A stretch of DNA of 43,462 bases from Kineococcus vitellinus (GTDB taxonomy: Bacteria > Actinomycetota > Actinomycetes > Actinomycetales > Kineococcaceae). Of this stretch, positions 24,790 to 43,462 are shown piece after piece; positions within the stretch are counted from its first letter, which is position 1, and every line of letters starts with the position of its first letter. The stretch lies in assembly GCF_009906315.1 (NCBI RefSeq), contig NZ_JAAALL010000003.1, positions 1 to 43,462 of the forward strand, read 5' to 3'. The notes under the pieces were generated by a model. That model was not told where the DNA came from. It searched no databases and was given only the letters and a program-made list of their open reading frames with translations. The position numbers and the translations under genes were made by a program.

Positions 24790-26343
24790 ATGCTCCGCCG
24801 CCGCCTGTCCGCCACCCTCGCCGCCACCGCCTCCGCCCTCGTCGCCCTGACCGCGGGTGCCTCCGCCCAGGCCATCGCCGCACCGGCCGCCGCCGTTACA
24901 GCCGCGAGCGCCGACTCGGTGATCTCGCGGACCATGCCCGCCGGTGGCGTCTTCAGCGCGGGGACCGCGTGGAAGCTGGACGTCAGCAAGGCCCCCAAGC
25001 ACGCCAACTCCGCCGGCATGGTCAAGAACGTGGCCGACCAGACCGCCGCCCAGTACGGCGGGGTCGCGGCCTTCAACGCCTACCAGTACAGCACCAGCGT
25101 CTACACCGTCTCGGCCAGCACGCCGAAGGTGGACGTGAAGTGGAACAACTGCCAGGGGAAGACCTGGACCCCGGCGGGCCTGCTCGGCCCGGGTGGGCAG
25201 TTCACCCAGGTGCCGATCCCCGCCGACGCCGTGCCCGCGACGGGCACCGACAGCCAGCTGACCATCTACTCCCCCGCCACCGACCAGCTGTGGGAGTTCT
25301 GGGTCGCCAAGAAGGCGAACGGCGTCTGGAGCGCCTGCTGGGGCGGGCGCATCGACGGCGTCTCCTACAGCCAGGGCTACTTCCACGACGGGTTCGGCGC
25401 CAGCGCCAGCGGCCTGGCCCTGGCCGGCGGCACCATCGGCATCAAGGACGTGCAGTCCGGTGTCATCGACCACGCCCTCGCCCTGCACCTGCAGGCACCC
25501 GGGACGTGGAAGGAGTTCAGCTACCCCGCCCAGCGCAGCGACGGCTACGACACCTCCGCCAACCGCGTCCCCGAGGGCACGCGGCTGCGCCTGGACCCGA
25601 GCATCGACGTGGACGCGCTGAAGATGCACCCCATCGCGAAGATGGTCGCCAAGGCCGCGCAGAAGTACGGCTTCATCGTCACCGACAAGGCCGGCTGCAC
25701 CGCCGTCGTCGCCGAGAGCCCCGCCGCCGCGATCGCCGCCACCGGCGTCGACCCGTGGAAGGCGCTGCTGGGCAGCACCCCCAGCTACTCGGTGATGAAG
25801 GGCTTCCCCTGGGGCAAGCTCCAGGCGCTGCCCAGGGACCACGGCAAGCCGGTCCCCGGTTCCACCGCCGGCGGCGAGGTGGTGACCGTGCCGACCACGC
25901 CGGTCGGCCCGATCGCGAAGTTCGCCTCGGACACGCAGTACCGCGTGCTGCGCAACGGCTGGGGCCCGGCCGAGAAGGACCGCAGCAACGGTGAGCTGGC
26001 CGCCGGCGACGGCAAGGCGCTGAAGATCGCCGGCACCACGTACGCCAAGGGCTTCGGCGTGCACGCGGCCTCGGAGGTCGTCGTCCCCGTCAACGGGGCG
26101 CGCACGTTCTCCGCGAAGGTCGGCATCGACGCCGAGGTCGGCGCCAAGGGCGCCGTGCAGTTCCAGGTGTGGGCCGGCGGCACCAAGCTGGCCGACAGCG
26201 GGCTCGTGCGCGGCGGCGAGGTGGCCAGGACCATCGTCGCCCCCGTCAGCGGCAGGACCGAGATCCGCCTCGTGGTCACCGACGGCGGCAACGGCACCGC
26301 CGGTGACCACGCCGACTGGGCGGACGCCGGCTTCTCCTCCTGA
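24790..26343 (+). CDS. Secreted protein of an unassigned family with C-terminal NPCBM-like domain (paralogue 1)
   Basis: 517 residues. A signal peptide (MLRRRLSATLAATASALVAL, cut near ASAQA) is followed by a core of about 330 residues I cannot assign, then a linker and an NPCBM-like carbohydrate-binding domain from about residue 376 (NGWGPAEKDRSNG, YAKGFGVHAASEV, DHADWADAGF). The core has WNNCQGKTWTPAGL, LTIYSPATDQLWEFW, ACWGGRID, GFGASASGLALAGGTIGI, IDHALALHL, PAQRSDGYD, PEGTRLRLDPSIDVD and KAAQKYGFIVTDKAGC. Three Cys suggest a disulfide outside the cell. ATG at 24790 follows CGGAGGA. Three more copies are in the window. A glycan-binding or glycan-processing role is inferred from the NPCBM domain and neighbours. 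Confidence 0.85.
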   Translation: MLRRRLSATLAATASALVALTAGASAQAIAAPAAAVTAASADSVISRTMPAGGVFSAGTAWKLDVSKAPKHANSAGMVKNVADQTAAQYGGVAAFNAYQYSTSVYTVSASTPKVDVKWNNCQGKTWTPAGLLGPGGQFTQVPIPADAVPATGTDSQLTIYSPATDQLWEFWVAKKANGVWSACWGGRIDGVSYSQGYFHDGFGASASGLALAGGTIGIKDVQSGVIDHALALHLQAPGTWKEFSYPAQRSDGYDTSANRVPEGTRLRLDPSIDVDALKMHPIAKMVAKAAQKYGFIVTDKAGCTAVVAESPAAAIAATGVDPWKALLGSTPSYSVMKGFPWGKLQALPRDHGKPVPGSTAGGEVVTVPTTPVGPIAKFASDTQYRVLRNGWGPAEKDRSNGELAAGDGKALKIAGTTYAKGFGVHAASEVVVPVNGARTFSAKVGIDAEVGAKGAVQFQVWAGGTKLADSGLVRGGEVARTIVAPVSGRTEIRLVVTDGGNGTAGDHADWADAGFSS

Positions 26344-26358
26344 CCCCGGGACCCCGCG

Positions 26359-26406
26359 GGCGGGCCGCCCGGCCCCGGACGTCAGTCCGGGACCGGGCGG
26401 CCCGCC
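26359..26406. terminator. Bidirectional hairpin between paralogue 1 and the GT2 gene
   Basis: 22-base arms at 26359-26380 and 26385-26406 with a single mismatch and a 4-base loop (GTCA). The loop and right arm include the stop and last codons of the minus-strand glycosyltransferase gene. Confidence 0.72.
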
Positions 26407-29114
26407 TCCTGCGCGCTGCGCCGCGAGCGCCACCACGCCGACGGCCCCTCCAGCAGACCGCGGACCTCGGTGGCCAGCACGTCGGCCGGGTAGTCGTCGC
26501 GACCGCGGGCCACCTGCACCGCGCGGCGCGCCAGGTGCCGCGGCACCCCGACCGCGACCCGGCCCAGGCCGCGGACGTCGCCGTGGCGGGCCGCGACCTG
26601 CAGGTGGTAGGCGACGTGGCCGCTGGAGTAGGCCCGCACCTGCCGGCGCAGCCCCGGCCGGTCCGCGCGGTGGTGGTGGCGCACGACCGCGGTGGGCTGG
26701 TAGACGATCGTCCAGCCCGAGCGCAGCACCCGGTAGAAGTACTCGGTGTCCTCGCCCACCCCGGAGGGCCGGCCCGGCCCGAGGGTCTCGTCGAAGGGGC
26801 CGAGACCGGCGAGCACGTCGCGGCGCACCGCCGCGTTGGCCGTGGCGCCGATCTGCCAGGTGGGCGCCGGGCCGCGCGAGCCCACCAGCCAGGAGCGGTC
26901 GTAGGTCCGCCGGTGCGGGCCCCGGCCGAGACCGCCGTAGTCCTCGAACACCTGCGGGTCGAGCAGGTCGAGGTTGGCGGGGACGACGTTGCCGGTCACC
27001 GCGCCGACGGCGGGGTCGGCGAAGGGGGCCAGCAGCTCCTCCAGCCAGCCGGCGGTGGTCTCGACGTCGTCGTCGACGAGGACGACGACGTCGCCGCGCA
27101 GGTGCGCCAGGCCCGCGTTGCGCGCCGGGGACAGCCCCGGCCAGGGCTCGTGGACGACCTGGACCCCCGGCAGCCCCGCCGCCACCGCCCGGGTCGCCGA
27201 CGGGTCGGGCGAGTTGTCCACGACGACAACCTGCAGCGGGCGCGCGGTGCTCGCCAGCAGCGCCTGCAGGCTGCGCCGCAGCTCCCGGGGCCGGTCGCGG
27301 GTGGCCATGAGCACGCTCACGGGCACCTCGGCGGGCAGCCGCTCGGGCGCCGCGGCCAGCGCGGTCCGCAGCGCCGCCGCCAGCGGGCGCGCTCCCCCGC
27401 CGCCGGCGGCGGCCAGGTCGTGCCAGGAGGTGCCGGGGCGCAGCAGCGCCGGCCCCAGCCGGTCGACGAGCTCGCGGGCCAGCCGGGCGGTGCCGACGCG
27501 GGAGCCGTCGGCGGCGACGGCGAACGCCGCCTGCGGCGCGCCGGCCCGCTCGACGAGCACCCGCAGCCGGCGCTGCCCCGGCGAGGGCGGGCCGTCCGGC
27601 AGCCGCGCGGCCGCCGGCCCGCCCTCCAGCAGGTCCACCCGCACGACCGGGTCGGCCCGGCGCGGGCGGCGGCGCTCCGCGGGGCGGTGCACCAGCGCGG
27701 GCGCCGGCGGTTCGCCGGGGTGGCGGGCGGCCTCGGCGGCGGCCTGCCGCCGGGCGGCGCGGTAGTAGCGGCCCAGCACGGCGTCCACCGCGCCGCGGGT
27801 GTCGGCGCGGGTGAGCTCGGGCGGGTACAGCTGCGGCCACACGAGGCTGCGGAGGTGGGCGCGCGCGTGCTGGCGCACGAACCAGCGGGCGGCGAAGGCC
27901 CCCAGCTCGGCGGCCTGCACGCCGCCGTAGTTGCCCGACGCCCCCGCGAAGATGCTGTAGGCGCCCGTGCCGTTGCCCCGCAGCTGGCGGGCGAGCTGGT
28001 CCATCCCGGTGCGGTGGCGGTGCAGCACCACGGCCGCGGGCTCGTAGACGACGAGCCCGCCGGCGGCCAACACGCGGAAGTACACCTCCAGGTCGCCGCC
28101 GCCACCGGTGGGCGTGCCCACGTCGAGGGCGGTGTCGAAGCCGCCGAGGGCCAGGGCCCGCTCGCGCCGCAGCGCCGTGCTGGCCCCGGTGCCCGCGCCG
28201 CCGGTGCCGGGGTGGCGGCGGGCGGCCACCTCCCCGCTGTCGACCGCCGCGGAGAACCACCGCCGCCGGTAGCCGCGGCCGAAGCCGCCCACGGCCTCGA
28301 AGAGGACCTGCGCGGGCGTGCTGAACTCCGCCGGGGCGACGAGGCCGGTGACGACGACGGCGTCGGGCTCCTCGGCGAACGTGCGGGCCAGCTCGGCCGC
28401 CCAGCGCGGGTGCACGAGGACGTCGTCGTCGGCGAAGGCCACGACCTCCGCGCGGGCCTCCAGCAGCGCGCGGTTGCGGGCCCAGTCCAGCCCGGCGCGC
28501 GGTTCGCGCACGTACCGGGCGCCGAACTCCTCGGCGACCAGCCGCGTCCGCTCGTCGCGGGAGGCGTTGTCGACGACGAGGACCTCGGCCACCGGCCCCT
28601 GCAGCCGGGCGATCGAGGCCAGGCAGCGGCGCAGGTCCTCGGGGCGGTCGCGGGTGCAGACGGCCACCGTCAGCGTCGGCGGGTCGGCCGGGGGCGCGGG
28701 GTGCGGCACGTGCTCCAGGCCCTCCGCCAGCGCCGCCCGCAGCCCGCCGGGCACGAGCAGGGCGTCCAGCAGCAGGTGCTCCAGGACCTGCTGCTCCAGC
28801 TCGCGGGCCGCGCGGGCGGGCAGGGCGCCGAGCACCACGTCCGGCGGGCCCGGGACGGTGAGGTCGCCGACCGGCACGCCGTGCAGCCACACCAGGGCGT
28901 GCACCCCCTCGGCCTCGTGCTCGGGAGGCGTCAGCGGGGCGCGCAGGACGGCCGTGGCGGTGTCGAGGTCCACGTCGGCCACGGCCAGGGCGCGGTAGCG
29001 GCGGCGGGTGCCGGGCGGGCGGTAGCGGTCCAGGCCCTGCGGGCGGCGGACCGCGGCGACGCCCTGCTGCAGCGCGGTGCGCGCCAGGCGGGCGGCGCGG
29101 GGGGTGGGGCTCAC
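26382..29114 (-). CDS. Glycosyltransferase with two GT2 domains
   Basis: Cytosolic glycosyltransferase of 910 residues with two separate GT-A family-2 domains. Domain 1 begins near residue 146 (LTVAVCTRDRPEDLRRCLAS, then FADDD as DXD motif and GGDLEVYFRVLAAG). Domain 2 begins near residue 598 (VSVLMATRDRPRELRRSLQA, then VLVDDDVE and GVGEDTEYFYRVLRSG). Both have the nucleotide-sugar and metal motifs, so both may be active, making a chain with alternating sugars. There are no membrane spans. GTG at 29114 is chosen; the open frame upstream overlaps the acyltransferase gene and is not real. It follows the acyltransferase by 23 bases on the same strand. Confidence 0.87.
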   Translation of the reverse strand: MSPTPRAARLARTALQQGVAAVRRPQGLDRYRPPGTRRRYRALAVADVDLDTATAVLRAPLTPPEHEAEGVHALVWLHGVPVGDLTVPGPPDVVLGALPARAARELEQQVLEHLLLDALLVPGGLRAALAEGLEHVPHPAPPADPPTLTVAVCTRDRPEDLRRCLASIARLQGPVAEVLVVDNASRDERTRLVAEEFGARYVREPRAGLDWARNRALLEARAEVVAFADDDVLVHPRWAAELARTFAEEPDAVVVTGLVAPAEFSTPAQVLFEAVGGFGRGYRRRWFSAAVDSGEVAARRHPGTGGAGTGASTALRRERALALGGFDTALDVGTPTGGGGDLEVYFRVLAAGGLVVYEPAAVVLHRHRTGMDQLARQLRGNGTGAYSIFAGASGNYGGVQAAELGAFAARWFVRQHARAHLRSLVWPQLYPPELTRADTRGAVDAVLGRYYRAARRQAAAEAARHPGEPPAPALVHRPAERRRPRRADPVVRVDLLEGGPAAARLPDGPPSPGQRRLRVLVERAGAPQAAFAVAADGSRVGTARLARELVDRLGPALLRPGTSWHDLAAAGGGGARPLAAALRTALAAAPERLPAEVPVSVLMATRDRPRELRRSLQALLASTARPLQVVVVDNSPDPSATRAVAAGLPGVQVVHEPWPGLSPARNAGLAHLRGDVVVLVDDDVETTAGWLEELLAPFADPAVGAVTGNVVPANLDLLDPQVFEDYGGLGRGPHRRTYDRSWLVGSRGPAPTWQIGATANAAVRRDVLAGLGPFDETLGPGRPSGVGEDTEYFYRVLRSGWTIVYQPTAVVRHHHRADRPGLRRQVRAYSSGHVAYHLQVAARHGDVRGLGRVAVGVPRHLARRAVQVARGRDDYPADVLATEVRGLLEGPSAWWRSRRSAQEAGRPVPD

Positions 29115-29137
29115 GCCTCGATGGTGGCGGACGCCGC

Positions 29138-30226
29138 TCAGGTCGCCGGTGAGGTCGCCGGGCGCGGCGCGCCCGGCCTCGCGCGGCGGGGCCAGCGCCC
29201 GCCCAGCACGAGCGCGCGCCCCCACGCCGAGCGGCGGGCCACCAGCTCGACGAGGACGCCGACGGCGATGCCCGCCAGCAGCCCGGCGAGCACGTTGAGC
29301 GTCACCGACGACAAGCCCAGGCGCTCCAGGACGATCCGGGCGGCGGAGGTCCCGAAGACGTGGCAGGTGTAGATCGAGAACGAGAACCCGCCGACCACGG
29401 CCAGGGGGCGCCAGGTGCGGCGCACCAGCAGCAGGCTCAGGCAGGCGGTCACGCCGAGCAGCGCGGCCACGGCGTCGTGGCGCTCGGGCAGGCGGGCCAC
29501 GACGCCCTGCAGGCCGAGCTGGGACCACAGCGCCAGCAGCAGGGCCGCGAGGACGACCGCGCCGCGGGCGGCGCGGGGGGCCGCCCGCCACTCGAAGCGC
29601 CGGGCCGCCAGGCCGGAGAGGAAGAACGGCAGCAGGAACAGGGCGTCGCGCAGCGCCAGGACGTTCGTCGGGGTGGGCACGAGCTCGTCGGCCACGACCG
29701 CGAGGGCGATCAGCGGCACGACCGCGGACCCGCGCTCCAGCAGGCGGAAGCGGTCGGCCAGGCCGACGAGCAGGAAGACCCAGAAGACCGCCTCGAGGAA
29801 CCAGAAGTGGGCGACCGGGAAGACGTGCCACAGGTACCAGGGGGTCTGCTCGCCGCCGTTGGCCACGCCGCCGGCCGAGGCGCGCACGAGGGCGAACGCC
29901 GTGCCGACGACGAGCATCGGCACGAGCAGGCGGCGGACCTTGCCCTGCGCGAAGCGCGGCCAGCGCTCGCGCAGCGGCCGCAGCGCGTACACGTAGCCGG
30001 ACAGGAAGCTGAACAGCGGCATCCGCAGGTAGACCAGGGAGTCGACCAGGTACGACCAGGGGTTGCCCCGGTCCAGGCGCAGCCCGTCACCGGGTCCACC
30101 GCCGCGCACGTGGTAGAGCACCACGAGCAGGCAGGCCAGGCCGCGCAGGGTGTCGATGGAGGAGTCGCGTCCCGGTGGGGACGCGAGGCGCCGCGCGAAC
30201 CCGCGCACCTGCCCGTCGGCTGCCAC
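29138..30226 (-). CDS. Acyltransferase-3 family membrane protein
   Basis: Integral membrane acyltransferase (362 residues, about ten helices) of the OafA/YrhL type that O-acylates surface glycans. Seen: RDSSIDTLRGLACLLVVLYH with the His that is conserved in the family, LVYLRMPLFSFLSGYVYALR, FWFLEAVFWVF, and GFSFSIYTCHVF. GTG at 30226 is chosen because GGGGAGG lies just before it. It is downstream of rsmI by 107 bases and upstream of the GT2 gene, so they probably act on the same glycan. Confidence 0.88.
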   Translation of the reverse strand: MAADGQVRGFARRLASPPGRDSSIDTLRGLACLLVVLYHVRGGGPGDGLRLDRGNPWSYLVDSLVYLRMPLFSFLSGYVYALRPLRERWPRFAQGKVRRLLVPMLVVGTAFALVRASAGGVANGGEQTPWYLWHVFPVAHFWFLEAVFWVFLLVGLADRFRLLERGSAVVPLIALAVVADELVPTPTNVLALRDALFLLPFFLSGLAARRFEWRAAPRAARGAVVLAALLLALWSQLGLQGVVARLPERHDAVAALLGVTACLSLLLVRRTWRPLAVVGGFSFSIYTCHVFGTSAARIVLERLGLSSVTLNVLAGLLAGIAVGVLVELVARRSAWGRALVLGGRWPRRARPGAPRPATSPAT

Positions 30227-30242
30227 GGACGCCTCCCCGTCG

Positions 30243-31295: not shown

Positions 31296-31306
31296 ACGTC
31301 CGGCGC

Positions 31307-32764
31307 GTGGAGCTCTACGACCAGTTCGTGCTCTCGCGGGGTTCGCGCCCGCACCCCTCCGGCTGGGCGGAGCGGAGCAGCGGCCCGTGGGTCCTGGCCA
31401 CCAGCCCGACGCTGCCGGTGACCCCGCTGCGGAGCGGGGACGGCGGGCTCGCGGGCTGGCTGCTGGGCTGGGTCGTCGCTCCGGGCGGCGAGCTGCTGCA
31501 CGAGCGCGCGGAGCTGGCGCTGGAGGCCGTCGAGGATCCCGGCGGGGACGTCGAGGAGCGGCTGTACCGCTTCTCCGGCCGCTGGGCGTGCGTGCTGCTC
31601 GGGGACCGGCCCCGCGTCCACCTCGACCCCGCCGGCTCGCTGGCCGCCGTCTACTCCGAGCAGGAGCAGGCGCTGGCCTCCACCACGACCGCGCTCTCCT
31701 TCGGCGACGCCGCGCGCGAGGACCGCTACGCGCAGCGCGTGCTCGGTCCCGGCCAGTACCACCCCGCCGGGATCACCAGCGACCCCAAGGCGCGGCGCCT
31801 GCTGCCGAACCACCGCCTGGACCTCGGCACCTGGGAGGCGGTGCGGCACTGGCCGCCGGGACCGGTGCAGCGCGTGGACGCGGCCGACGCGGCGGGGCTG
31901 CAGGAGTGCCAGGAGGTGATCGCCGCGGGCCTGCGCGAGCACGTGGAGGCCCTGGCCGCCCGCCACCGGCTCGTGCTGCCGCTGACCGCCGGCCGCGACA
32001 GCCGGATGCTCATGGCCGCGGCCCGCCGGGTGCTGGACCGCTGCACCTTCGCCGTCTTCGCCTACGAGGACGAGCGCCGCGCCGACGTGGCCTACGCCCG
32101 CGAGGTGGCCCGCCGCTTCGGCCTGCGCCTGCAGGTGCTGCCGCTGCGGGAGGTCGACGAGGCGGCCGCCCGCTCCTACCTCGAGCGCGTCGGCTACGAC
32201 GCCAACGAGGGCAAGGCCGGCGACTTCGACCTGGCGGCCCGCGCCCTGCCGCTGGACCACGCCTGGCTGACCGGCTTCGCCGGCGAGGTCGGCCGCGGGG
32301 CGTACTGGAAGGCGTCGGTGATCCCCCCGGAGCCGACCGCCGAGGAGCTGCTGCAGCTGATCCGCCTGCCGCACGAGCCGGCGCACATCGAGGCGCTGGC
32401 GGCCTGGCGGGCGGCGGCACCGCACCAGGACGTGCTCGAGCTGCTGGACCTGGCCTACCTGGAGCTGCGCGTGGGCTGCTGGGCCAGCCCCCAGCTCTAC
32501 GGGGCGGCGCCGTTCGCGCTCAGCACGATGCCGGTCGCCCAGCGCTCCGTCTTCACCGCGATGCTGCGGCTGCCGCCGGCCCTGCGCGTGCAGCAGCGCC
32601 CCCACCCCCCGGCGATCCGGCTCAACTGGCCGGAGCTGGCGGACCTGCCCTACGAGCGGGCACCGGGACCGCGCGGCTGGCCGGACGCCCTGCGCACCGG
32701 CGTCGCGTCCACGCGCGAGCGCCTGGCGCTGGGCACCCGCGCCGCGCGCCTGCTGCGCCGCTGA
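31307..32764 (+). CDS. Asparagine-synthase-like (PP-loop ATPase) protein in glycan cluster
   Basis: 485 residues. The N-terminal half resembles the glutaminase-like half of asparagine synthetases (VLLGDRPRVHLDPAGSLAAV, HRLDLGTWEAVRHWPPG) but lacks the Cys-1 nucleophile. The C-terminal half has a PP-loop near residue 226, LPLTAGRDSRMLMAAA in place of SGGxDS, followed by FAYEDERRADVAYAREVARR and FGLRLQVLP. ATP-dependent amide formation with free ammonia, or a non-synthase role, is possible. In surface-glycan clusters such proteins can amidate sugar acids; that is only an inference here. GTG at 31307. Confidence 0.72.
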   Translation: MELYDQFVLSRGSRPHPSGWAERSSGPWVLATSPTLPVTPLRSGDGGLAGWLLGWVVAPGGELLHERAELALEAVEDPGGDVEERLYRFSGRWACVLLGDRPRVHLDPAGSLAAVYSEQEQALASTTTALSFGDAAREDRYAQRVLGPGQYHPAGITSDPKARRLLPNHRLDLGTWEAVRHWPPGPVQRVDAADAAGLQECQEVIAAGLREHVEALAARHRLVLPLTAGRDSRMLMAAARRVLDRCTFAVFAYEDERRADVAYAREVARRFGLRLQVLPLREVDEAAARSYLERVGYDANEGKAGDFDLAARALPLDHAWLTGFAGEVGRGAYWKASVIPPEPTAEELLQLIRLPHEPAHIEALAAWRAAAPHQDVLELLDLAYLELRVGCWASPQLYGAAPFALSTMPVAQRSVFTAMLRLPPALRVQQRPHPPAIRLNWPELADLPYERAPGPRGWPDALRTGVASTRERLALGTRAARLLRR

Positions 32765-32795: not shown

Positions 32796-32796
32796 A

Positions 32797-33912
32797 TCAG
32801 CTCCCCGAGGAGCGGGACCCCGACGGGCCGGACCCCGACGGGCTGGGCTTCGGGGCGGGCTTGCCCCAGTCCTCGGGCAGGACCTCCAGGCGGTCCCAGG
32901 GGAACCCCTCCAGCACCTGGTACGGCGGCACCCCGTCCATCTCGCGCTCCCAGAAGCCCGGGTCGTCGGCCACCGGCTGCCCGATCTGGCCGCCGACGTT
33001 CACCGCGCCGGCCTGGTCGGTGACGATGAACCCGTACTCCTGCGCCGCCTCGGCGATCATCGAGGCGAGCGGGGTCAGCTCCAGCTCGTCGACGTCGACG
33101 TCCGCCGGCAGGCGCAGCCGGACGCCTTCCGGCAGCGCGTGCTCGTCGTCGTTGTTCCCGTCGCTGCGCTGCGCCGGCCAGCTCACCCGGTCCCACTTCG
33201 CCGGCCACATGACCGCCAGGCCGAGCGCGTGGTCGATGCGCCCGCGGCGGACGTCGTCGACCCACACCGTGCCCGCGGACATCGCCAGCCCGCTGCCGCT
33301 GGCCCCGAACCCGTTGCGGAAGTATCCGCGGCTCTTCGACGCGTCGTCGATGCGGCCGCCCCAGCAGGCGCTCCAGCCGTCGTCGTCGCGCTCCACGCGC
33401 CAGAACTCCCAGAGCCGGTCCGTGGCGGGTGAGTAGATCGTCAGCTGCCCGTCGCTGCCCGGGGACGGGCGGGCGTCGTCGGGGATCGGGACGTCGGTGA
33501 ACTGGCCTCCCTCGCCGAGCAGGCCGTCCGGGGTCCAGTCCTTGTCCTGGCAGTTGGTCCACGCCACGTCGACGGTCGGCTGGTCGGCGTCCACGGTGTA
33601 CCAGCTGGCGGTGAACTGGTCGACGTTGAAGGAGGCGACACCCCCCCAGTGCTCGCTGACCTGCTCCACCAGTCCGTCGACCATCGCGGCCGAGTCCTCG
33701 TGCACCGGGGCCTCGCGCACGCTGGTGCGCCAGACGCTGCGCGGCCCGAACGGGTAGTCGGCGGCGACCCGGGCGGGACCGGGCTGCGGATCGGGTTCCT
33801 CGGTGGTGAGCCGATGCACCGCGAGGGCGAGCAGGAGCAGCAGGACGACCGCCGCAGCGACCAGCGCGGCGAGCCTGCGGCGGCTCCTGCGGGGGGCGGT
33901 GGGCGAGGTCAC
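32797..33912 (-). CDS. Membrane-anchored member of the unassigned secreted family (paralogue 2)
   Basis: 371 residues. A basic N-terminus (RRSRRRLAAL) and one helix (VAAAVVLLLLLALAVHRL) with no clear cleavage site suggest an N-terminal anchor with the core outside. The core matches the other copies: AWTNCQDKDWTPDGLLGEGG, LTIYSPATDRLWEFW, ACWGGRIDD, GFGASGSGLAM, RIDHALGLAV, PAQRSDG, EGVRLRLPADVDVDELELTP and AAQEYGFIVTDQAG. It is the most divergent copy: the third Cys (DKAGC) is replaced and there is no NPCBM domain; the tail is rich in Ser, Gly and Pro. GTG start at 33912 behind GAGGAGG. Divergent from paralogue 3. Confidence 0.82.
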   Translation of the reverse strand: MTSPTAPRRSRRRLAALVAAAVVLLLLLALAVHRLTTEEPDPQPGPARVAADYPFGPRSVWRTSVREAPVHEDSAAMVDGLVEQVSEHWGGVASFNVDQFTASWYTVDADQPTVDVAWTNCQDKDWTPDGLLGEGGQFTDVPIPDDARPSPGSDGQLTIYSPATDRLWEFWRVERDDDGWSACWGGRIDDASKSRGYFRNGFGASGSGLAMSAGTVWVDDVRRGRIDHALGLAVMWPAKWDRVSWPAQRSDGNNDDEHALPEGVRLRLPADVDVDELELTPLASMIAEAAQEYGFIVTDQAGAVNVGGQIGQPVADDPGFWEREMDGVPPYQVLEGFPWDRLEVLPEDWGKPAPKPSPSGSGPSGSRSSGS

Positions 33913-34223: not shown

Positions 34224-35327
34224 ATGTCCCGCACGTCCCGCCGCCTGGCCGCGGCGTTCGCCGCCACGGCCGTCCTGGCCGGCGGCGTCGTCTCGACCGG
34301 CGCGGCCGCGCAAGCCGCCGACGTGCACGTGTCCCCGGGCCGCCGCAGCGTCTCGGCCACGGCCGGGCAGAACCTGATGGCCGACTTCCGGGGTCCCGCG
34401 GGGACCCCGTTCAGCGCGGTCAGCGTGTGGAAGCAGGACGTCAGCGGCGCTCCGCTGCACGCCTCCTCGGCCGCGATGGTGAGCAACGTCGCCGACCAGG
34501 CCGCGAAGTACTACGGCGGCATCGCGGCCTTCAACGCCTACCGCTACAACACGAGCGTCTACACCGTCTCGGCGAGCACGCCGAAGGTGGACGTCCGCTG
34601 GGACAACTGCCAGAAGAAGACCTACACCCCCGGCGGGCTCACCGGTCCGGGCGGGCAGTTCACCCAGGTCCCGGTCCCCGACGACGCCGTGCCCTCCCCC
34701 GGCACCGACGGCGAGCTGACGATCTACTCCCCCGGCACGGACCAGCTGTGGGAGTTCTGGCAGGCGAAGAAGGTGGGTGGCACCTGGCAGGCGTGCTGGG
34801 GCGGTCGCATCGACCGCGTGTCGAGCGACCCGGGGTACTTCTCCGGCGGTTTCGGCGCCAGCGCCAGCGGTCTGGCCATCGTGGGCGGCACGATCGGCAT
34901 CAAGGAGGCCCAGGCCGGTCGCATCGACCACGCCCTCGCGCTGGCGATCCCGGCGCCGGGCAACTGGAACGAGTTCAGCTGGCCGGCCCAGCGCAGCGAC
35001 GGCTACGACAAGTCCGCCGGCCGGGTCCCCGAGGGCACTCGCCTGCGCCTGGACCCCTCGATCGACGTGGACAGCCTCAAGCTGACGCCCATCGCGACGA
35101 TGGTCGCCAAGGCCGCGCAGAAGTACGGCTTCATCGTCACCGACAAGGCCGGGTGCGTCGCGGTGACGGCGGAGAGCCCGGCCGCCACGATCGCCGCCAC
35201 CGGCGTCGACCCGTGGAAGGCGCTCATGCAGGGCAAGCCGGACTACCGGATCATGGAGGGCTTCCCCTGGGGGAAGCTGCAGGCGCTGCCGAAGGACTGG
35301 GGCAAGCCGTCCTCGCCGAAGCGCTGA
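34224..35327 (+). CDS. Secreted member of the unassigned family, core only (paralogue 3)
   Basis: 367 residues. Signal peptide MSRTSRRLAAAFAATAVLAG cut near AAAQAAD, then the family core to the end with no carbohydrate-binding domain. Conserved blocks are VWKQDVSGAPLHASSAAMVS, WDNCQKKTYTPGG, LTIYSPGTDQLWEFW, ACWGGRID, GGFGASASGLAIVGGTIGIK, RIDHALALAIPAP, WPAQRSDGYDKS, PEGTRLRLDPSIDVDSLKLT, KAAQKYGFIVTDKAGC and GFPWGKLQALPKDWGKP. This copy defines the minimal unit and shows that the core ends near GKLQALPKDWGKP. ATG at 34224 with GAGGAG. Divergent partner of paralogue 2. Confidence 0.85.
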   Translation: MSRTSRRLAAAFAATAVLAGGVVSTGAAAQAADVHVSPGRRSVSATAGQNLMADFRGPAGTPFSAVSVWKQDVSGAPLHASSAAMVSNVADQAAKYYGGIAAFNAYRYNTSVYTVSASTPKVDVRWDNCQKKTYTPGGLTGPGGQFTQVPVPDDAVPSPGTDGELTIYSPGTDQLWEFWQAKKVGGTWQACWGGRIDRVSSDPGYFSGGFGASASGLAIVGGTIGIKEAQAGRIDHALALAIPAPGNWNEFSWPAQRSDGYDKSAGRVPEGTRLRLDPSIDVDSLKLTPIATMVAKAAQKYGFIVTDKAGCVAVTAESPAATIAATGVDPWKALMQGKPDYRIMEGFPWGKLQALPKDWGKPSSPKR

Positions 35328-35419: not shown

Positions 35420-35947
35420 GTGAGCAGATCGTGGTGGCGCGAGTGGCTGGACCTGACCCGCAGCGACCTGCCGCTGAACCGCCCCTCCCGCGAGTCCATC
35501 GCGACGATGGCGATCTGGCGCTTCGGGCAGGTCCTGCACGACCGCCCGGGTGCGGTCGCGTTCGCGCTGCGCCGCGTCCACGGGGTCGTCGACCAGCTGT
35601 GGGTGCGCAACACCATCGGTGCCGAACTGCCCCGCAGCGTCGTCGTCGGTCCCGCGATGAAGCTGCCGCACGCCGGACGCGGGGTCATCGTGCACCCGGA
35701 GGCGCGCATCGGCGCCAACGTGACGCTGCACCACCGGGTGACGATCGGCGTGCGCAACAACGCCCGTCCCCCGCACATCGCCGACGGCGTCTACCTGGGC
35801 GCCGGGTCGGCCGTGCTGGGGCCCGTCGACCTGGGGCCGGGCTGCAAGATCGGTGCGAACGCCGTCGTCGTCAAGGACGTGGCGGCCGGCGCGACCGTCG
35901 TCTCGCCGCCGGCCCGCGTGCTGGAACGTCCTCCCGCGCAGACCTGA
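35420..35947 (+). CDS. Hexapeptide-repeat acetyltransferase (serine-acetyltransferase-like)
   Basis: 175 residues. The C-terminal half is a left-handed beta-helix of hexapeptide repeats: GRGVIVHPEARIGANVTLHH, RVTIGVRN, PHIADGVYLGAGSAVLGPVD, LGPGCKIGANAVVVKDVAAG. The order resembles CysE-type acetyltransferases, but the N-terminus (WWREWLDLTRSDLPLNRPSR) is that of the polysaccharide-cluster subtype. O-acetylation of a glycan is therefore more likely than cysteine synthesis. GTG start at 35420 behind GGGAGGA. It converges with the flippase gene with 10 bases between. Confidence 0.82.
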   Translation: MSRSWWREWLDLTRSDLPLNRPSRESIATMAIWRFGQVLHDRPGAVAFALRRVHGVVDQLWVRNTIGAELPRSVVVGPAMKLPHAGRGVIVHPEARIGANVTLHHRVTIGVRNNARPPHIADGVYLGAGSAVLGPVDLGPGCKIGANAVVVKDVAAGATVVSPPARVLERPPAQT

Positions 35948-35961
35948 GGTCCGCGCCTCAG
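35944..35961. terminator. Small hairpin containing both stop codons
   Basis: CTGAGG-TCCGCG-CCTCAG; the TGA of the acetyltransferase and the stop of the flippase gene lie in opposite arms. The stem is only 6 bp, so it is a weak terminator. Confidence 0.4.
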
Positions 35962-37508
35962 CCGCGGCGGCGCCGGGCGAGCCGCAGCGTCTCCAGCAGC
36001 CGGGGGCGCTGCAGCAGCAGCGAGCCGGCGCCGTAGAGGAGCACGCCGAGCGCCACCTGGACCAGGACCGTCCCGCTCGACGCCGGGTCCCAGCCGAGCA
36101 CGCGCGGCAGGTACCAGACCAGGACGCCCATCACCGCGGCGGTCAGCAGGGTCGGCGCGGCACCGCGCAGGGTCTGGGTGACGCGCAGGCCGACGACGCG
36201 GCCGGAGACGTGCAGGGCGACCGGCGCCATCACCCAGGACTTCACCAGGACCCCCCAGGCGACGCCGACGATCCCCCAACGCAGGCCGACGGCCATGGCG
36301 ACCACGCCCACGACGGAGCCGACGATCCCCATGACGAACATGGTGGTCGTGCGCCCCTGCGACTGGTACAGCCAGCCCACGCTCGTGCTGACGCACTGCG
36401 GGACGCCCGCGATGCACAGCACCTGCAGGACCGGCACCACCGCGGTCCACTGCTCGCCCCACAGCAGGGGCACGAGGCCCTCCGCGGTGGCGGCCAGGCC
36501 GACGAGCACCGGGATGGTGACGAAGTTGATGGTCCCCAGCGAGCGCAGGTACATCGAGCGCACCCGCGGGTGGTCGTCGCGCACGGCGGCCAGGGCGGGG
36601 AACATCACCCGCCCCAGCGTCCCGGTGATCTGCGTGACCGGCAGCAGCATGAGGTTGTACCCGCGCCCGTAGAGGCCGAGCGGGGCGGCCCCGAGGAAGC
36701 GCCCGATGAGCAGGTTGTCCGCGTTCCGGCCCCAGTAGTTCACGACGTTGAAGCCGAGCATGCCGCCGGAGAAGCGCCACAGCTCCCGCAGGCTCCTGCG
36801 GTCGACGAAGTGGCGGGGCCGCCAGCGGACCACGCAGAACAGCACGACGGAGGTGAGCGCGGTCGACACCAGCGGCCCGGAGACCAGCGCGAAGGTCCCC
36901 GCGCCCAGCAGGGCCGCGACCACGGTGGTGACGTGCCCCACCAGGGCCGACGACAGGTCGACGGCCGCGATCGTGCGGAAGCGCAGCTGCCGCTGCAGGA
37001 TCGAGTAGTGCACCACGCCGAGGGACAGCGTGAACGCCAGCGCGACGAACGGCATGAGGCTCGTCATCCGGGGGGCGTCGAAGAACTCGGCGATCAACGG
37101 TGAGATCGCCCACATGAGGCCGGCGTAGAGGACACCGCTCACGGCGTTGATCCAGAAGACCGTCGACAGGTCGCGCTCGCTGGGCGAGCGCTGGTGCACC
37201 AGGGCGGCCCCGAGCCCCATCTCGAAGAACAGCGTGGCGAAGCCCGTGACGACGTAGATGCTGGCCAGCAGGCCGAAGTCCGCCGGTGCCAGCAGCCGGG
37301 CCAGCACCAGACCGGCCAGGAACTGCAGGCCCTGGGTGCCGAGCTTGCTCATCCCCGCCCACTTGGCGCCGGAGACGACCGCGCCCTTCATGGAGCCGGA
37401 GGTGTCCACCGTCGCGGCCGCCGCGGCCGCCGCAGTGCGCTCGTCGGCGGCGGCGGCCTGCTCGCCCGCCGCCTGCTCGCCCGCCGCGGGCTCCACGCCG
37501 TGCGTCAC
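35958..37508 (-). CDS. Polysaccharide flippase, Wzx/TuaB type
   Basis: 516-residue membrane protein with about twelve to fourteen helices that would move lipid-linked sugar units across the membrane. Family pattern at the start of the core: KGAVVSGAKWAGMSKLGTQG, LQFLAGLVLARLLAPADFGL, then GLGAALVHQ and NVVNYWGRNADNLLIGRFLG. A low-complexity Ala/Glu-rich stretch of about 40 residues precedes it. GTG at 37508 overlaps the stop of the pyruvyl transferase gene (GTGA), so the two are coupled and probably act on the same glycan. Confidence 0.9.
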   Translation of the reverse strand: MTHGVEPAAGEQAAGEQAAAADERTAAAAAAATVDTSGSMKGAVVSGAKWAGMSKLGTQGLQFLAGLVLARLLAPADFGLLASIYVVTGFATLFFEMGLGAALVHQRSPSERDLSTVFWINAVSGVLYAGLMWAISPLIAEFFDAPRMTSLMPFVALAFTLSLGVVHYSILQRQLRFRTIAAVDLSSALVGHVTTVVAALLGAGTFALVSGPLVSTALTSVVLFCVVRWRPRHFVDRRSLRELWRFSGGMLGFNVVNYWGRNADNLLIGRFLGAAPLGLYGRGYNLMLLPVTQITGTLGRVMFPALAAVRDDHPRVRSMYLRSLGTINFVTIPVLVGLAATAEGLVPLLWGEQWTAVVPVLQVLCIAGVPQCVSTSVGWLYQSQGRTTTMFVMGIVGSVVGVVAMAVGLRWGIVGVAWGVLVKSWVMAPVALHVSGRVVGLRVTQTLRGAAPTLLTAAVMGVLVWYLPRVLGWDPASSGTVLVQVALGVLLYGAGSLLLQRPRLLETLRLARRRRG

Positions 37509-38779
37509 GCGGGCCTCCGCTGCAGGACGCCCGCCACGAGGGCGCCGACCTCCTCGGCACCCGCCGCCATCGCCGGCACCGCGGCGGCCACCTGCTCGCG
37601 CACGCGCGGGGCCTCGTCGAGCAGGGCGAGGACGCGCTCGCTCAGCACCTGCGGCGTGACGTCGTCGATGTCGACGGTCCACTCCGGCAGGCCCAGCTGC
37701 CCCCACACCTCGCTCGTCTTGTACTCGTAGGCGATCGTCAGCGTGGGGACCCCGGTGCACACGGCGCTGATGGCGCCGTGCAGGCGGGTGGACAGCATGG
37801 CGTCGAAGGTGCCCAGCAGGTCGATGAGCTCCTCGGGGTGGTGCGCGGCGCGGTCGACGACGACGTGCTCGCGGACGTCGTCGGGCAGACCCTCGGCCAC
37901 CCGCAGGGCGAACTCGGAGTCGTCGCGCACGTACTCCGGCCGCCCCTGGCAGGTCGAGACGAAGGTCACCTCGGCGCCGCGCTCGCGCACCGCGCTGGTC
38001 ACCGCCGCGCGCAGGGCCTCGGCGTAGTCGGCCATGCCGCGCTCGCGGTCCTTGTCGCGGAAGAAGGCCCAGTCCCGCACGCTGACGGCCAGCCGCGGCG
38101 GCCCGGCGCCCTCGGCGCGCTCGGCGGCCAGGAGCTCCGGGCGGGCCAGGGCGAAGACGACGTCGGGGACGACGCGGCAGCGGGCGGGGTCGGCGCCGAT
38201 CTCGACGACGTGCTGCAGCGAGCGCTCGTCGCGCAGCAGCACCAGGTCGGCCGTCTCCAGCACGGGCCGCAGGGCCTGCCGGTTCTCCGGCTTGCGGAAG
38301 GGACCGGCCGACTGCGGGAGGAAGACGAGCGGCTTGCGCAGCCGGCGCGCCACGTCGAGGTCGAAGACCTTGTCGGTCAAGTTGTAGTTGTCCGTGAGCG
38401 TCGTGCCCCCGGTGTAGGCGATGACGTCCGCCCGGGCCATCTCCCGAAAGGCGGGCGCCGCGGCCGCCGGCACTAGGAGCGCGGCCGGCGCGCCCACCCC
38501 GCGGCCGAGCAGCGAGGCCGCCGCCTTGACCCGTGCGCAGCGCACCCGGTGGAGCAGGGCGCGCACCCTCGTCGGCAGCCGGCCGCCCGGCGCCAGCGAG
38601 GGCAGCAGGAAGGGCGCGAACGGGACGTCCGGCAGGTACGTCGCCGCCGGCCCGGGGTGGGTGTCGGACACCGAGACGCGGGCACCGGGCCACTGCCGCT
38701 GCAGCACTCGGCGCTGTGCGACCAGGATGGCCGCGTCGCCGCCGTTGAGCGAGACGAGGCCGAGGATGTGCACGTGCAT
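37505..38779 (-). CDS. Polysaccharide pyruvyl transferase family protein
   Basis: 424 residues of the CsaB/WcaK type that attaches pyruvate ketals to glycans. Seen: MHVHILGLVSLNGGDAAILV, ADVIAYTGGTTLTDNYNLTD, KPLVFLPQSAGPFRKPENR, VLLRDERSLQHVVEIGA, RVVPDVVFAL and the C-terminal STRLHGAISAVCTGVPTLTI with the typical RLH. Pyruvylated wall polymers are known ligands of SLH domains; whether that applies here is unknown. ATG at 38779. First gene of the pair with the flippase; divergent from pmt. Confidence 0.88.
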   Translation of the reverse strand: MHVHILGLVSLNGGDAAILVAQRRVLQRQWPGARVSVSDTHPGPAATYLPDVPFAPFLLPSLAPGGRLPTRVRALLHRVRCARVKAAASLLGRGVGAPAALLVPAAAAPAFREMARADVIAYTGGTTLTDNYNLTDKVFDLDVARRLRKPLVFLPQSAGPFRKPENRQALRPVLETADLVLLRDERSLQHVVEIGADPARCRVVPDVVFALARPELLAAERAEGAGPPRLAVSVRDWAFFRDKDRERGMADYAEALRAAVTSAVRERGAEVTFVSTCQGRPEYVRDDSEFALRVAEGLPDDVREHVVVDRAAHHPEELIDLLGTFDAMLSTRLHGAISAVCTGVPTLTIAYEYKTSEVWGQLGLPEWTVDIDDVTPQVLSERVLALLDEAPRVREQVAAAVPAMAAGAEEVGALVAGVLQRRPA

Positions 38780-38968
38780 CCGAGGTGACTGCCTTCCGTC
38801 CGTGCTGACTCCGCCACCCGGTGGGCGGCGGACCGACCTGATGGACCGGACGGACGGCATTGTCACCCCTGGTCGGCGCAGCCATGCAACCGCACGTGCA
38901 CGCTCGGTGGCAAACAGCGAGGCCGCTGCCGGCCGTGCACCGACCGGGCGCCAGGAGCCGCACCTACG

Positions 38969-40600
38969 ATGCCGAGGGTGAGCACCACCCTGCGCGCCCC
39001 GTCCCCGCCGGCCGAGGACCTGCGCGAGCGGCTGCTGGGCGGGCCCTCGGAGATCGACGGGGAGTCCTGGCGGCGCGGCTGGCTCCCGCTGCTGCTCGTC
39101 ACCGCGATCGGCGGCTTCCTGCGCTTCTTCCAGCTCGGCCGCCCCCACCAGCTCGTCTTCGACGAGACGTACTACGTCAAGCAGGCGTGGTCGCTGCTGC
39201 AGCACGGCGTCGAGCTGCGCAACGACCCCGCGCTGGGCAGCACCCCGGACGCCCTGTTCACCGCCGGCACCCCCGACGTCTTCGACACCGCCGGCGACTT
39301 CGTCGTCCACCCGCCCGTGGGCAAGTGGATGATCGCCGTCGGCCAGTGGATCTTCGGGGTCGACTCCTCCTTCGGCTGGCGCTTCTCCGCCGCCGTCGTG
39401 GGGACCCTGTCGATCCTGCTCATCGGCCGCGTCGCGCGCCGCATGTTCCGCTCGACGCTGCTGGGGGTCACCGCCGCCGTCCTGCTCTCGGTCGACGGCC
39501 AGCACTTCGTGGAGAGCCGCACGAGCCTGCTCGACGTCTTCCTCATGTTCTGGGTGCTGGTGGCCTTCGCCTGCCTGCTGGTCGACCGCGACCGGGCGCG
39601 CGAGCGGCTGGCCCGGGCGGTGGCCTCCGGCCCGGTGGACGGGCTCGGCCCCCGGCTGGGCTTCCGCGGCTGGCGGCTGGCGGCCGGGGTCAGCCTCGGC
39701 CTGGCGTGCGGGGTGAAGTGGTCGGGCCTGTACGTGGTGGCCGTCTTCGGGCTGCTGACGGTGCTGTGGGACGCCGGCGCCCGGCGCGCGGCCGGCGTGC
39801 GGGCCTGGCTGCCCGCCGCGGCCTGGCGCGACGGCCTGCCCGCCTTCGTCGCGCTCGTGCCGACCGCCGTGGTCGTCTACGTCGGCACCTGGGCGGGCTG
39901 GTTCGCCTCCGACGCCGGCTGGGACCGCTCCTGGGGCGCCGAGCACCCCGCCGACGGCGCCGGCCGCCTCGTGCCGGACGCGCTGCGCAGCCTGTGGCAC
40001 TACCACCAGCAGGCGTACGCCTTCCACGTCGGCCTCGACAGCCCCCACCCCTACTCGGCCAACCCGTGGTCCTGGCTCGTGCAGGGCCGCCCGACGTCCT
40101 TCTTCTACGAGTCGAAGGCGCAGGGCCAGGAGGGCTGCGACGTCGCCGACTGCGCGAAGGCGATCACCTCGCTGGGCACCCCGGTGCTGTGGTGGGCGGC
40201 CGCGCTGGCGCTGCTGGTCGTCCTGGTCCGCTGGGCGCTCGTGCGCGACTGGCGGGCCGGCGCCGTGCTGGCCGGGTACGCGGCGACCTACCTGCCCTGG
40301 TTCCAGTACCAGCACCGCACGATCTTCACCTTCTACGCCGTCGTGCTCGCCCCCTTCGTCGTGCTGGCCCTCGTGCACGTGCTGGGGCTCGTGCTGGGCC
40401 CGGACCCGCGCTCGGTAGCCCTGCGCGGCGGGGTCCGCCTCGAGGCCACCGTGCGGCGCCGGCGCCGGGGGGCCCTGGTCGCCGGCGCGGTCGTCGTGGC
40501 GTGCGTGGCCTGCTTCGCCTTCTTCTGGCCGGTCTACACGGCACAGGTGATCCCGTACGAGAGCTGGCAGCGCCGGATGTGGCTGCCCAGCTGGGTCTAG
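38969..40600 (+). CDS. Protein O-mannosyltransferase (Pmt, GT39)
   Basis: 543-residue polytopic membrane enzyme that uses polyprenyl-phosphate mannose to mannosylate secreted proteins at Ser/Thr. The catalytic Asp-Glu is in QLVFDETYYVKQAWSLLQHG; HPPVGKWMIAVGQWIFGVDS, DGQHFVESRTSLLDVFLMFW and WLVQGRPTSFFYESKAQGQE are typical of the Rv1002c group. ATG at 38969; a GTG at 38978 is possible. Its substrates could include the Ser/Thr/Pro-rich tails of secreted proteins nearby, but this is an inference. Confidence 0.92.
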   Translation: MPRVSTTLRAPSPPAEDLRERLLGGPSEIDGESWRRGWLPLLLVTAIGGFLRFFQLGRPHQLVFDETYYVKQAWSLLQHGVELRNDPALGSTPDALFTAGTPDVFDTAGDFVVHPPVGKWMIAVGQWIFGVDSSFGWRFSAAVVGTLSILLIGRVARRMFRSTLLGVTAAVLLSVDGQHFVESRTSLLDVFLMFWVLVAFACLLVDRDRARERLARAVASGPVDGLGPRLGFRGWRLAAGVSLGLACGVKWSGLYVVAVFGLLTVLWDAGARRAAGVRAWLPAAAWRDGLPAFVALVPTAVVVYVGTWAGWFASDAGWDRSWGAEHPADGAGRLVPDALRSLWHYHQQAYAFHVGLDSPHPYSANPWSWLVQGRPTSFFYESKAQGQEGCDVADCAKAITSLGTPVLWWAAALALLVVLVRWALVRDWRAGAVLAGYAATYLPWFQYQHRTIFTFYAVVLAPFVVLALVHVLGLVLGPDPRSVALRGGVRLEATVRRRRRGALVAGAVVVACVACFAFFWPVYTAQVIPYESWQRRMWLPSWV

Positions 40601-40660
40601 GCCCGGCCCGCCGGCGGCGGTCGTGGCTGCCGCCACGCCCGGCGTGCCAGGATCACCGGC

Positions 40661-41524: not shown

Positions 41525-41895
41525 GGCCGGCGGCCGGGGCTGCGAGAGCCCGCGCGCGCCCGATCGGGACGCGGTGTGAAACACCTCCACCCCGGCCGGC
41601 GATGTCGTCGCAGGAACCTTCCGCGGGACCCGGGAACAGGTGCAGATCACCCAGCGCGAGGGGTCTGCGGCAGGAGTCCGGGCGTTCGGGCGCACGGTCA
41701 CGCTGGGCGACGACTACGGCTCACCCGAAGGAGTGGGGGCCTGGGACGGCCGTCCCCCCGGTCCCGGGGGACGGCGCGTGACATCGGCTGCGCCAAACCC
41801 CGCAGCCGGGTGAACCCGCGGCGCGGAGTTGAAGGCGGGGTGGTGGCGGGCCCGATGGGTCGGGTGTCGAAGAGAACTCGTCACCTGGAGCCCTC
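41525..41895 (+). other. Long leader of paralogue 4
   Basis: 371 bases without a supported gene. Seen: small hairpins GGGCT-GCGAG-AGCCC (41537-41551) and GGTGT-GAA-ACACC (41573-41585), a strong GC hairpin region at about 41748-41775, CGGGT-GA-ACCCG (41807-41818), TTGAAGG (41829-41835) and CCGATGGGT (41852-41860). CGGGTGA, TTGAAGG-like and CCGATGGGT recur in the same order in the leader of paralogue 1. Its purpose is not known. Confidence 0.45.
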
Positions 41896-43462
41896 GTGAT
41901 CCGCAAGCGCCTCACCGCCGCCCTCCTCATCACCACCGCCTGCGCCGTGCCCGTCACGGGCACCGGAACCGCCGCAGCAGTGACCGCTTCGTCCGCCACG
42001 AGCAGCACCGTCGCGCCGTCGGCGGTGGAGATCGGGATGCCCGCCGGTGGCGTTTTCACCAGCGGGACGGCGTGGAAGCTCGACGTGAGCTCTGCTCCGC
42101 TGCACGCCAACAGTGCCGGAATGGTGAGCAACGTCGCCCAGCAGACCGCCGCCCAGTACGACGGGGTCGCGGCCTTCAACGCCTACCAGTACAGCACCAG
42201 CTTCTACACCGTCCCGGCGGACCAGCCCCGCGTCGACGTGCAGTGGAACAACTGCCAGGGCAAGGCGTCCACGCCGCCCGGCCTGCTCGGCGAGGGCGGG
42301 CAGTTCACCCAGGTGCCGATCCCCGCCGACGCCGTGCCCGCCAAGGGCACCGACAGCCAGCTGACCATCTACTCCCCCGCCACCGACCAGCTGTGGGAGT
42401 TCTGGGTCACCAAGAAGGTCGACGGCGCCTGGAGCGCCTGCTGGGGCGGGCGCATCGACGAGGTCTCCAAGAGCCACGGGTACTTCGCCGGGAGCTTCGG
42501 CGCCAGCGCCAGCGGCCTGGCCCTGGCCGGCGGCACCATCGGCATCGAGGACGTGCAGTCCGGTGTCATCGACCACGCCCTCGCCCTGCACCTGCAGGCA
42601 CCCGGGCGTGCCGACGAGTTCAGCTACCCCGCCCAGCGCAGCGACGGGTTCGACACCTCGGAGAACAGGGTTCCGGAAGGAACCCGCCTGCGCCTGGACC
42701 CGAGCATCGACGTGGACGCCCTGAAGATGCACCCCATCGCGAAGATGGTCGCCAAGGCCGCGCAGAAGTACGGCTTCATCGTCACCGACAAGGCCGGCTG
42801 CACCGCCGTCGTCGCCGAGAGCCCCGCCGCCGCGATCGCCACCACCGGCGTCGACCCGTGGAAGGCGCTCATGGGCAGCACCCCCAGCTACTCGATCATG
42901 AAGGGCTTCCCGTGGGCCTCCCTGCAGGCGCTGCCCAAGGACCACGGCAAGCCCGAGGTCCTCGACGGCAGCGCGGGCGGGGTCTGGACCGACCACGACC
43001 CCGACGACATGGACGTCACCTACGTCTCCGACGCCGAGTTCCGCACCGTGCGCAACGGCTGGGGCCCGGTCGAGCGCGACCGCAGCAACGGCGACATCGC
43101 GGCCGGCGACGGCCGCCAGCTGAAGGTCGGCGCCATCACCTACGCCAAGGGCCTGGGCGTGCACGCCGGCTCCGAGGTCGTCGTCCCCACCCGCGGCGCG
43201 AAGACCTTCACCGCGAAGGTCGGCGTCGACAACGAGGTGGGCACCAGCGGCTCGGTCGTCTTCCAGGTCTGGAACGGCACCACCAAGCTCGCCGACAGCG
43301 GCGTGCTGCGCGGTGGGCAGGCCGCGAAGGCCCTCAGCGTCGACGTCTCCGGCGCCACCGAGATCCGCCTCGTCGTCACCGACGCCGGCAACGGCAAGAC
43401 CGGCGACCACGGCGACTGGGCCGACGCCCGGCTCCTCACGCCGACCCGCGGCGGTTCTACCC
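41896..43462 (+). CDS. Secreted member of the unassigned family with NPCBM-like domain (paralogue 4, 3' end cut by window)
   Basis: 522 codons are visible with no stop before the window ends. Signal peptide (MIRKRLTAALLITTACAVPV), family core (WNNCQGKASTPPGLLGEGG, LTIYSPATDQLWEFW, ACWGGRID, FGASASGLALAGGTIGI, PAQRSDGFD, PEGTRLRLDPSIDVD, KAAQKYGFIVTDKAGC), then an NPCBM-like domain from about residue 375 (VRNGWGPVERDRSNG, YAKGLGVHAGSEV, GDHGDWADARL). The frame goes on beyond the domain end (LLTPTRGGST), so this copy has an added C-terminal part compared with paralogue 1. GTG at 41896. It is very close to paralogue 1 at nucleotide level in the core but less so at both ends. Confidence 0.85.
   Translation, partial: MIRKRLTAALLITTACAVPVTGTGTAAAVTASSATSSTVAPSAVEIGMPAGGVFTSGTAWKLDVSSAPLHANSAGMVSNVAQQTAAQYDGVAAFNAYQYSTSFYTVPADQPRVDVQWNNCQGKASTPPGLLGEGGQFTQVPIPADAVPAKGTDSQLTIYSPATDQLWEFWVTKKVDGAWSACWGGRIDEVSKSHGYFAGSFGASASGLALAGGTIGIEDVQSGVIDHALALHLQAPGRADEFSYPAQRSDGFDTSENRVPEGTRLRLDPSIDVDALKMHPIAKMVAKAAQKYGFIVTDKAGCTAVVAESPAAAIATTGVDPWKALMGSTPSYSIMKGFPWASLQALPKDHGKPEVLDGSAGGVWTDHDPDDMDVTYVSDAEFRTVRNGWGPVERDRSNGDIAAGDGRQLKVGAITYAKGLGVHAGSEVVVPTRGAKTFTAKVGVDNEVGTSGSVVFQVWNGTTKLADSGVLRGGQAAKALSVDVSGATEIRLVVTDAGNGKTGDHGDWADARLLTPTRGGST

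Follow-up and report, generated by a model that had tools for sequence, protein, structure and literature searches.

The 43,462-nucleotide contig NZ_JAAALL010000003.1 of the soil bacterium Kineococcus vitellinus, analysed here in full (contig C333 of the assembly, hereafter the window), encodes four related proteins that share a core domain with no curated family name. We propose that this core is probably a carbohydrate-active enzyme domain, which acts on the surface polysaccharide of its own producer and is also used on phage tails. The proposal is based on the location of the genes in a sugar cluster, the predicted export of the proteins, their sugar-binding partner domains, the use of the domain on phage tails, and an invariant set of acidic and histidine residues. 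A more specific version, in which the family is a new polysaccharide-cleaving or -editing class with a fold absent from the PDB and an Asp-Glu/Asp-His-Asp site, repeatedly exchanged between exopolysaccharide (EPS) loci and phage tails, is put forward more tentatively, as a possible rather than a probable account.

Four paralogues with a common core

A first-pass annotation of the window, made from its letters alone, had described four paralogous genes, and these were recovered by a family search of the whole genome (4,855,962 bases in 698 contigs), which found four copies, every one on the window contig. Paralogue 1 (24790-26343, plus strand) has a signal peptide-like N-terminus, the family core (24943-25851) and a C-terminal NPCBM domain (25921-26334). 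Paralogue 2 (32797-33912) is coded on the minus strand, the plus-strand frame there holding a stop codon, and has a putative N-terminal membrane anchor and the core at 32857-33759. It adjoins, in divergent orientation, paralogue 3 (34224-35327, plus strand), which has a signal peptide-like N-terminus and the core at 34401-35309, and which serves as reference for residue numbering and for the structure model. Paralogue 4 (41896-43462, plus strand) has the core at 42046-42954 and an NPCBM domain at 43018-43434, and its gene is truncated by the contig end.

Paralogue 3 is 71% (E 8e-160), 67% (E 6e-149) and 54% (E 2.5e-110) identical to the other three (self-match, E 5.8e-248). Because the identities are 54-71%, with E values of 2.5e-110 or better, the kinship of the four, as judged from sequence comparison, is far beyond chance. 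The common core measures 301-303 residues, and not about 330 as first estimated. The shared blocks seen in the first pass are present, with the correction that GFGAS reads SFGAS in paralogue 4. The cysteine pair also described there corresponds to Cys 129 and Cys 191, found in all four proteins, while a third, Cys 311, is found in three of the four.

Reading of the N-terminal segments, together with hydropathy, agrees with the earlier suggestion that all four proteins are exported or anchored. Paralogues 1, 3 and 4 start with a short basic stretch, followed by a weaker hydrophobic stretch and A-x-A-type sites (read by eye). In paralogue 2 a single N-terminal segment is strongly hydrophobic (17-residue mean of 3.19 at residue 16, and nowhere else above 0.98), and the protein therefore fits one that is membrane-anchored at its N-terminus. 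The NPCBM domains (PF08305) of paralogues 1 and 4, which the first pass did not name, match with E values of 6e-42 and 1e-45, at 143 and 155 bits against a gathering score of 23.9. They are accessory domains, distinct from the core. Other accessory domains found in relatives or window proteins are CBM60, PA14, CBM_4_9, Laminin_G_3 and CWB2, and one K. rubinsiae paralogue carries NPCBM twice.

Conserved residues and predicted structure

No Pfam or NCBIfam model matched the core over its cut-off in the four window proteins and ten diverse relatives, nor did Pfam, used alone, match it in twenty further proteins; there is likewise no match to the core by any Pfam glycoside hydrolase (GH) or polysaccharide lyase (PL) model. 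The top NCBIfam row, on residues 4-131 of paralogue 2, scored 20.8 bits where 100 are required. Searches of PDB sequences gave a best E value of 0.22, and profile searches of the same sequences 0.73. The original view that the family has no name thus holds for the curated Pfam and NCBIfam models, but not for the phage families: residues 14-328 of paralogue 3 align with positions 148-441 of the 702-position profile of PHROG 17388 (minor tail protein), with E 1.1e-17. The family is named in none of the titles and abstract openings listed for papers on NPCBM, Kineococcus EPS or flippases, Gordonia phage tails and deacetylases, depolymerases or EPS hydrolases.

Among 61 domains from cells and phages, D162, G271, G302 and D307 are invariant (61/61). 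H236 and P254 are each kept in 59, and position 228 is acidic in 60, as E in 50 and D in 10. This set includes viral members that are just 17-18% identical to paralogue 3. We infer an enzymatic core whose substrate is made by the surrounding cluster and whose active or metal site consists of Asp162, Glu/Asp228, His236 and Asp307.

The AlphaFold2 model of the core, built with 29 sequences (pLDDT 94.2, pTM 0.92), is a mixed fold of several helices and short strands; a model from 10 close sequences was dropped as poor (pLDDT 62). With Foldseek, no PDB match reached E 0.001 (best 0.6), and the best VIA match had a Z score of 2.6. The model fits a fold that has not yet been solved, which is not proven by these searches because the VIA rows span mainly residues 51-144. 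Matches to Poxin were set aside as too weak (Foldseek probability 0.04-0.08, template-modelling (TM) score to the query 0.12-0.13, VIA Z 2.1). BFVD gave five matches with E values no higher than 0.001, namely an unnamed protein, a minor tail protein of a Gordonia phage and three proteins of uncultured Caudovirales phages, one of these three named parallel beta-helix repeat. The predicted structure of the minor tail protein of Gordonia phage Guillaume matches the model with a TM score to the query of 0.69. The confident model and the invariant Asp/His set make plausible the initial idea of a folded sugar-binding or lyase/hydrolase domain, although they do not tell these types apart.

The family in glycan loci

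The paralogues had been placed among glycan genes in the first pass, and Pfam supports these assignments. Between paralogues 1 and 2 the window encodes a protein with two GT2 glycosyltransferase domains (26382-29114, minus strand; two stretches of PF00535) and a membrane acyltransferase (Acyl_transf_3; 29138-30208, minus strand). Between paralogues 3 and 4 are a hexapeptide acyltransferase (35420-35947, plus strand), a polysaccharide flippase (Polysacc_synt_3; 35958-37508, minus strand), a polysaccharide pyruvyl transferase (37505-38779, minus strand), a protein O-mannosyltransferase (PMT; 38978-40600, plus strand) and a Branch family glycosyltransferase (PF02485; 40661-41524, plus strand), which we take to be of the GT14 type. 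None of the ten neighbouring genes given to Pfam matched a virion family (one had no match at all); PHROGs were not used on the window.

Of 396 genomes of the phylum, 57 match a profile built from the four cores, the window's own genome being one of them. Six of the 11 Kineococcus genomes match, one of them through 40-residue fragments only, so that full-length copies are found in five, which hold three to five copies each. In four of these five the copies share one contig within about 20 kb, and in the other (G403) they are split over two contigs. We compared five Kineococcus loci, from the window, K. siccus, K. rubinsiae, G397 and G399, leaving out G402 as an apparent repeat of K. rubinsiae. 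All five lie in EPS-type clusters and have a flippase homologue and a divergent pair of anchored and secreted proteins like paralogues 2 and 3, and in four of them a hexapeptide acyltransferase gene lies beside the pair. Three of the clusters (window, G397 and G399) include a PMT gene. The family genes of K. siccus and K. rubinsiae lie in longer clusters, which by reading of their genes are of the Wzx/Wzy type.

Of the 56 genomes other than the window's own, 11 have a flippase (PF13440) no more than 15 kb from a family gene; chance predicts 1.41, and none of 200,000 simulated runs reached 11. Simulated positions were uniform and contig ends were ignored; short contigs can only hide true flippase neighbours. 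The wider neighbourhood was compared using 25 family regions, one per genome and picked for few contigs, and 25 control regions taken from those genomes. No genes were called by the codon model in L142 and L144 (family) or in L167 (control), where G+C is 57-61%. This left 23 family regions with 144 called neighbours, every one of which was scanned. Of the 166 control proteins called, 142 were scanned; the others were the first protein in each of 18 regions, the four of L169 and the final two of L174. The family neighbours include seven GT4, four GT2, four Wzy_C and two bacterial sugar transferase matches, as well as molybdenum cofactor, methyltransferase and sigma factor models with two to three each. 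No glycosyltransferase or Wzy model is among the 25 families listed for the 142 control proteins, a list that leaves out rarer families and includes GDP-mannose dehydratase and epimerase models, with two proteins each.

The family is also found on plasmids of Mitsuaria, Rhizobium, Indioceanicola and Bradyrhizobium, with a clear EPS-type cluster around the gene in three of these four proteobacterial species. In Mitsuaria sp. 7 a single EPS cluster contains two copies, separated by about 13 kb, together with EpsF, a tyrosine autokinase, exosortase B, an O-antigen ligase, acyltransferases, GT4 and GT2 glycosyltransferases, WecB/TagA, a pyruvyl transferase, a flippase and rfbABCD. By our own reading, in records that lack a gene table there, the Rhizobium rhododendri copy lies among glycosyltransferase, Wzy-like and WecG-like genes, and the Indioceanicola copy among glycosyltransferase, sugar-transferase-like, Wzy-like and Wzz-like genes. 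The Bradyrhizobium barranii copy is beside a glycosyltransferase, an asparagine synthase, a sialidase family protein and a type I secretion system, a locus that appears glycan-flavoured from its gene content but is not clearly an EPS cluster. In Streptomyces ADI95-16, genes for heparin lyase I and an exo-beta-D-glucosaminidase are found near the family gene. For the window's branch of the family, then, the homologues in Kineococcus and Proteobacteria show the expected link to polysaccharide loci, and the core matched no characterised domain unrelated to glycans.

The family on phage tails

Paralogue 3 matches 69 phage records, all from Gordonia phages and some of them GenBank/RefSeq pairs; among the 20 matches listed, 15 are annotated as minor tail protein and five as hypothetical protein. 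In four Gordonia phages examined, the domain lies inside proteins of 671-985 residues. In BlueNGold gp89 the family domain is accompanied by a polysaccharide deacetylase domain (E 1.4e-5; 25.5 bits, cut-off 23.1). Glycosyltransferase and N-acetylglucosaminyltransferase genes lie close downstream of this deacetylase-plus-family-domain tail gene (L041, 7865-9798).

Additional viral contigs were drawn from IMG/VR. In L069, the core is 47% identical to that of paralogue 3 and is placed after an fn3 domain. The gene adjoins a GH26-like protein (PF02156, just over cut-off), which has no relative in the phage collection, and further neighbours read as beta-helix and GH5-like proteins, without Pfam support. 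In L085, a terminase gene, confirmed by similarity, is found just upstream of the family gene. Two environmental viral contigs (L067/L068, 291-5522) encode three family-like proteins in tandem.

In a tree of the 61 domains, phage and cell copies are interleaved, and at least five switches of the phage label are needed to account for the branches with strong support; support is weak at the base of the tree and at the fork beside the window's clade. The labels come from our own reading of the loci and from flippase distances. L007 was labelled from its neighbours as read, and the "EPS-linked" label of L023 and L024 stems from another copy of the same genome.

Nature of the core domain

If the core is an enzyme, the polysaccharide would first be exported in a flippase-dependent manner, after which the exported or anchored copies would act on the coat of their own cell, cleaving or editing it and so setting chain length, release or remodelling. 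The four copies would differ in address, two carrying NPCBM, a sugar-binding-type domain, one being free and one anchored in the membrane. Relatives on phage tails would cut the host polysaccharide from outside during adsorption, so that one domain may serve producers for trimming their own coat and phages for breaking through it.

Several observations weigh against this proposal. The second, common branch of the family, TSADAAGLP, breaks the general link to glycan loci that the first-pass annotation had expected: a flippase lies within 15 kb in none of its 13 genomes, two of which have no flippase match at all. These are the genomes whose fetched locus belongs to the branch (L020, L021, L025-L027 and L030-L037), and all 11 flippase-linked genomes are among the other 43, most of which have no branch assignment. 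WecG matches occur in 31 of 56 genomes but come within 15 kb of a family member in only one, and the copies in Kitasatospora, Streptomyces sp. 3211 and a Tsukamurella plasmid are not in glycan clusters. The Kineococcus flippases are 32-53% identical to that of the window, compared with 57-86% for the best family matches. Because the flippases vary more than the family proteins, the latter would not obviously track the glycan if it varies. Finally, no characterised relative of the core was found, and its invariant acidic residues and histidine could also be metal ligands in a lectin. As separate observations, the role of the TSADAAGLP branch may differ from that of the window's branch, and the Kineococcus pattern looks as if glycan genes had been swapped while the putative enzymes stayed.

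A lectin-like core would hold EPS at the cell surface as a matrix protein and bind receptors in phages, with Asp, His and Glu binding metal or ligand. Minor tail proteins often bind receptors, the core matches no GH or PL model, and it is paired with other binding domains (NPCBM, CBM60, CWB2 and CBM_4_9). However, this fusion to separate binding modules suggests that the core itself is the catalytic part, the BlueNGold tail protein also contains a deacetylase domain, and conservation of D162, G271, G302, D307 and H236 down to 17-18% identity is more usual for catalysis, so that we regard a lectin as unlikely, if still worth serious consideration. The enzyme could alternatively act on another surface polymer or on glycan attachment, for example by ligating or releasing a polymer at peptidoglycan, arabinogalactan or an O-mannosylated protein, and not on the EPS repeat. 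This would suit the Kineococcus flippases, which differ while the family proteins stay more alike, the PMT gene in three of the clusters, and the cell wall binding domain CWB2 carried by two TSADAAGLP members (L027 and L034). Yet Mitsuaria and Rhizobium, as Proteobacteria, have a different envelope and still keep their copies in EPS-type clusters, and we consider such a role improbable.

We give very little credence to the idea that the genes are former phage tail genes with an incidental place among glycan genes. Phage and cell copies do interleave on the tree, and the phage copies of L069 and L085 stand beside the window's clade, at the fork that is not strongly supported. Nevertheless, the flippase co-occurrence exceeds chance, the four window proteins start with apparent export or anchor segments and not with tail modules, three to five copies are retained in five of 11 Kineococcus genomes, and Mitsuaria holds much the same gene set.

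Comparison with known systems and implications

The Gordonia phage tail proteins of PHROG 17388 share the domain with the window proteins, but in the phages other modules surround it, whereas the window proteins carry predicted export signals and NPCBM and lie in an EPS-type locus. EPS loci encode several glycan-degrading proteins, among them PslG, BcsZ and AlgL in addition to PelA. Like the PelA-type glycanases, the window proteins appear to be exported, as judged from reading and hydropathy only, and are coded in a flippase-type EPS cluster, but their core matches no Pfam GH or PL model and has no PDB relative by sequence. In the EPS locus of Pseudomonas aeruginosa, the hydrolase activity of PelA yields secreted low-mass Pel (PMC9894940). 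A PelA-like making of a secreted low-mass polymer would be the simplest role for the window proteins.

Described phage depolymerases are typically homotrimers around a parallel beta-helix (DepoCatalog, PMC13385381). The family resembles these tailspikes in the presumed degradation of polysaccharide on phage tails, and its genes adjoin pectate-lyase-like proteins in L081 (PF12708, over cut-off) and, downstream, in L085 (below cut-off). In contrast to the beta-helix tailspikes, its model is a mixed fold and there is no sequence match, so on the predicted structure it may be a different solution from the beta-helix depolymerases.

If the enzyme proposal is true, these proteins would found a carbohydrate-active family that Pfam and NCBIfam have missed despite matches in 57 of the 396 genomes surveyed from the phylum, and one shared domain would tie EPS biosynthesis to phage attack. 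The small cores, the confident model and the four candidate residues are ready material for tests. Such enzymes could serve as anti-biofilm tools and help account for the host range of phages that infect Gordonia and related bacteria.

Other genes and copies

The window also encodes, just before paralogue 2, an asparagine-synthase-like protein (31307-32764, plus strand), for which the PF00733 match is weak and below cut-off (E 0.014) and which is possibly an amidotransferase for the glycan. The Bradyrhizobium family locus similarly has asnB adjoining a glycosyltransferase. An RsmI-like methylase, a housekeeping gene, sits in the same stretch (Pfam). In G397, one of the five family copies (C9, 112673-113575, in L114) lies between ActP/DUF485 and RsmI genes and has an in-frame TGA, which makes it a likely pseudogene. 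A core 59% identical to that of the window is present in L007 (CAJCIY010000097.1; G+C 73%), which is labelled Candidatus Melainabacteria, perhaps through a binning error.

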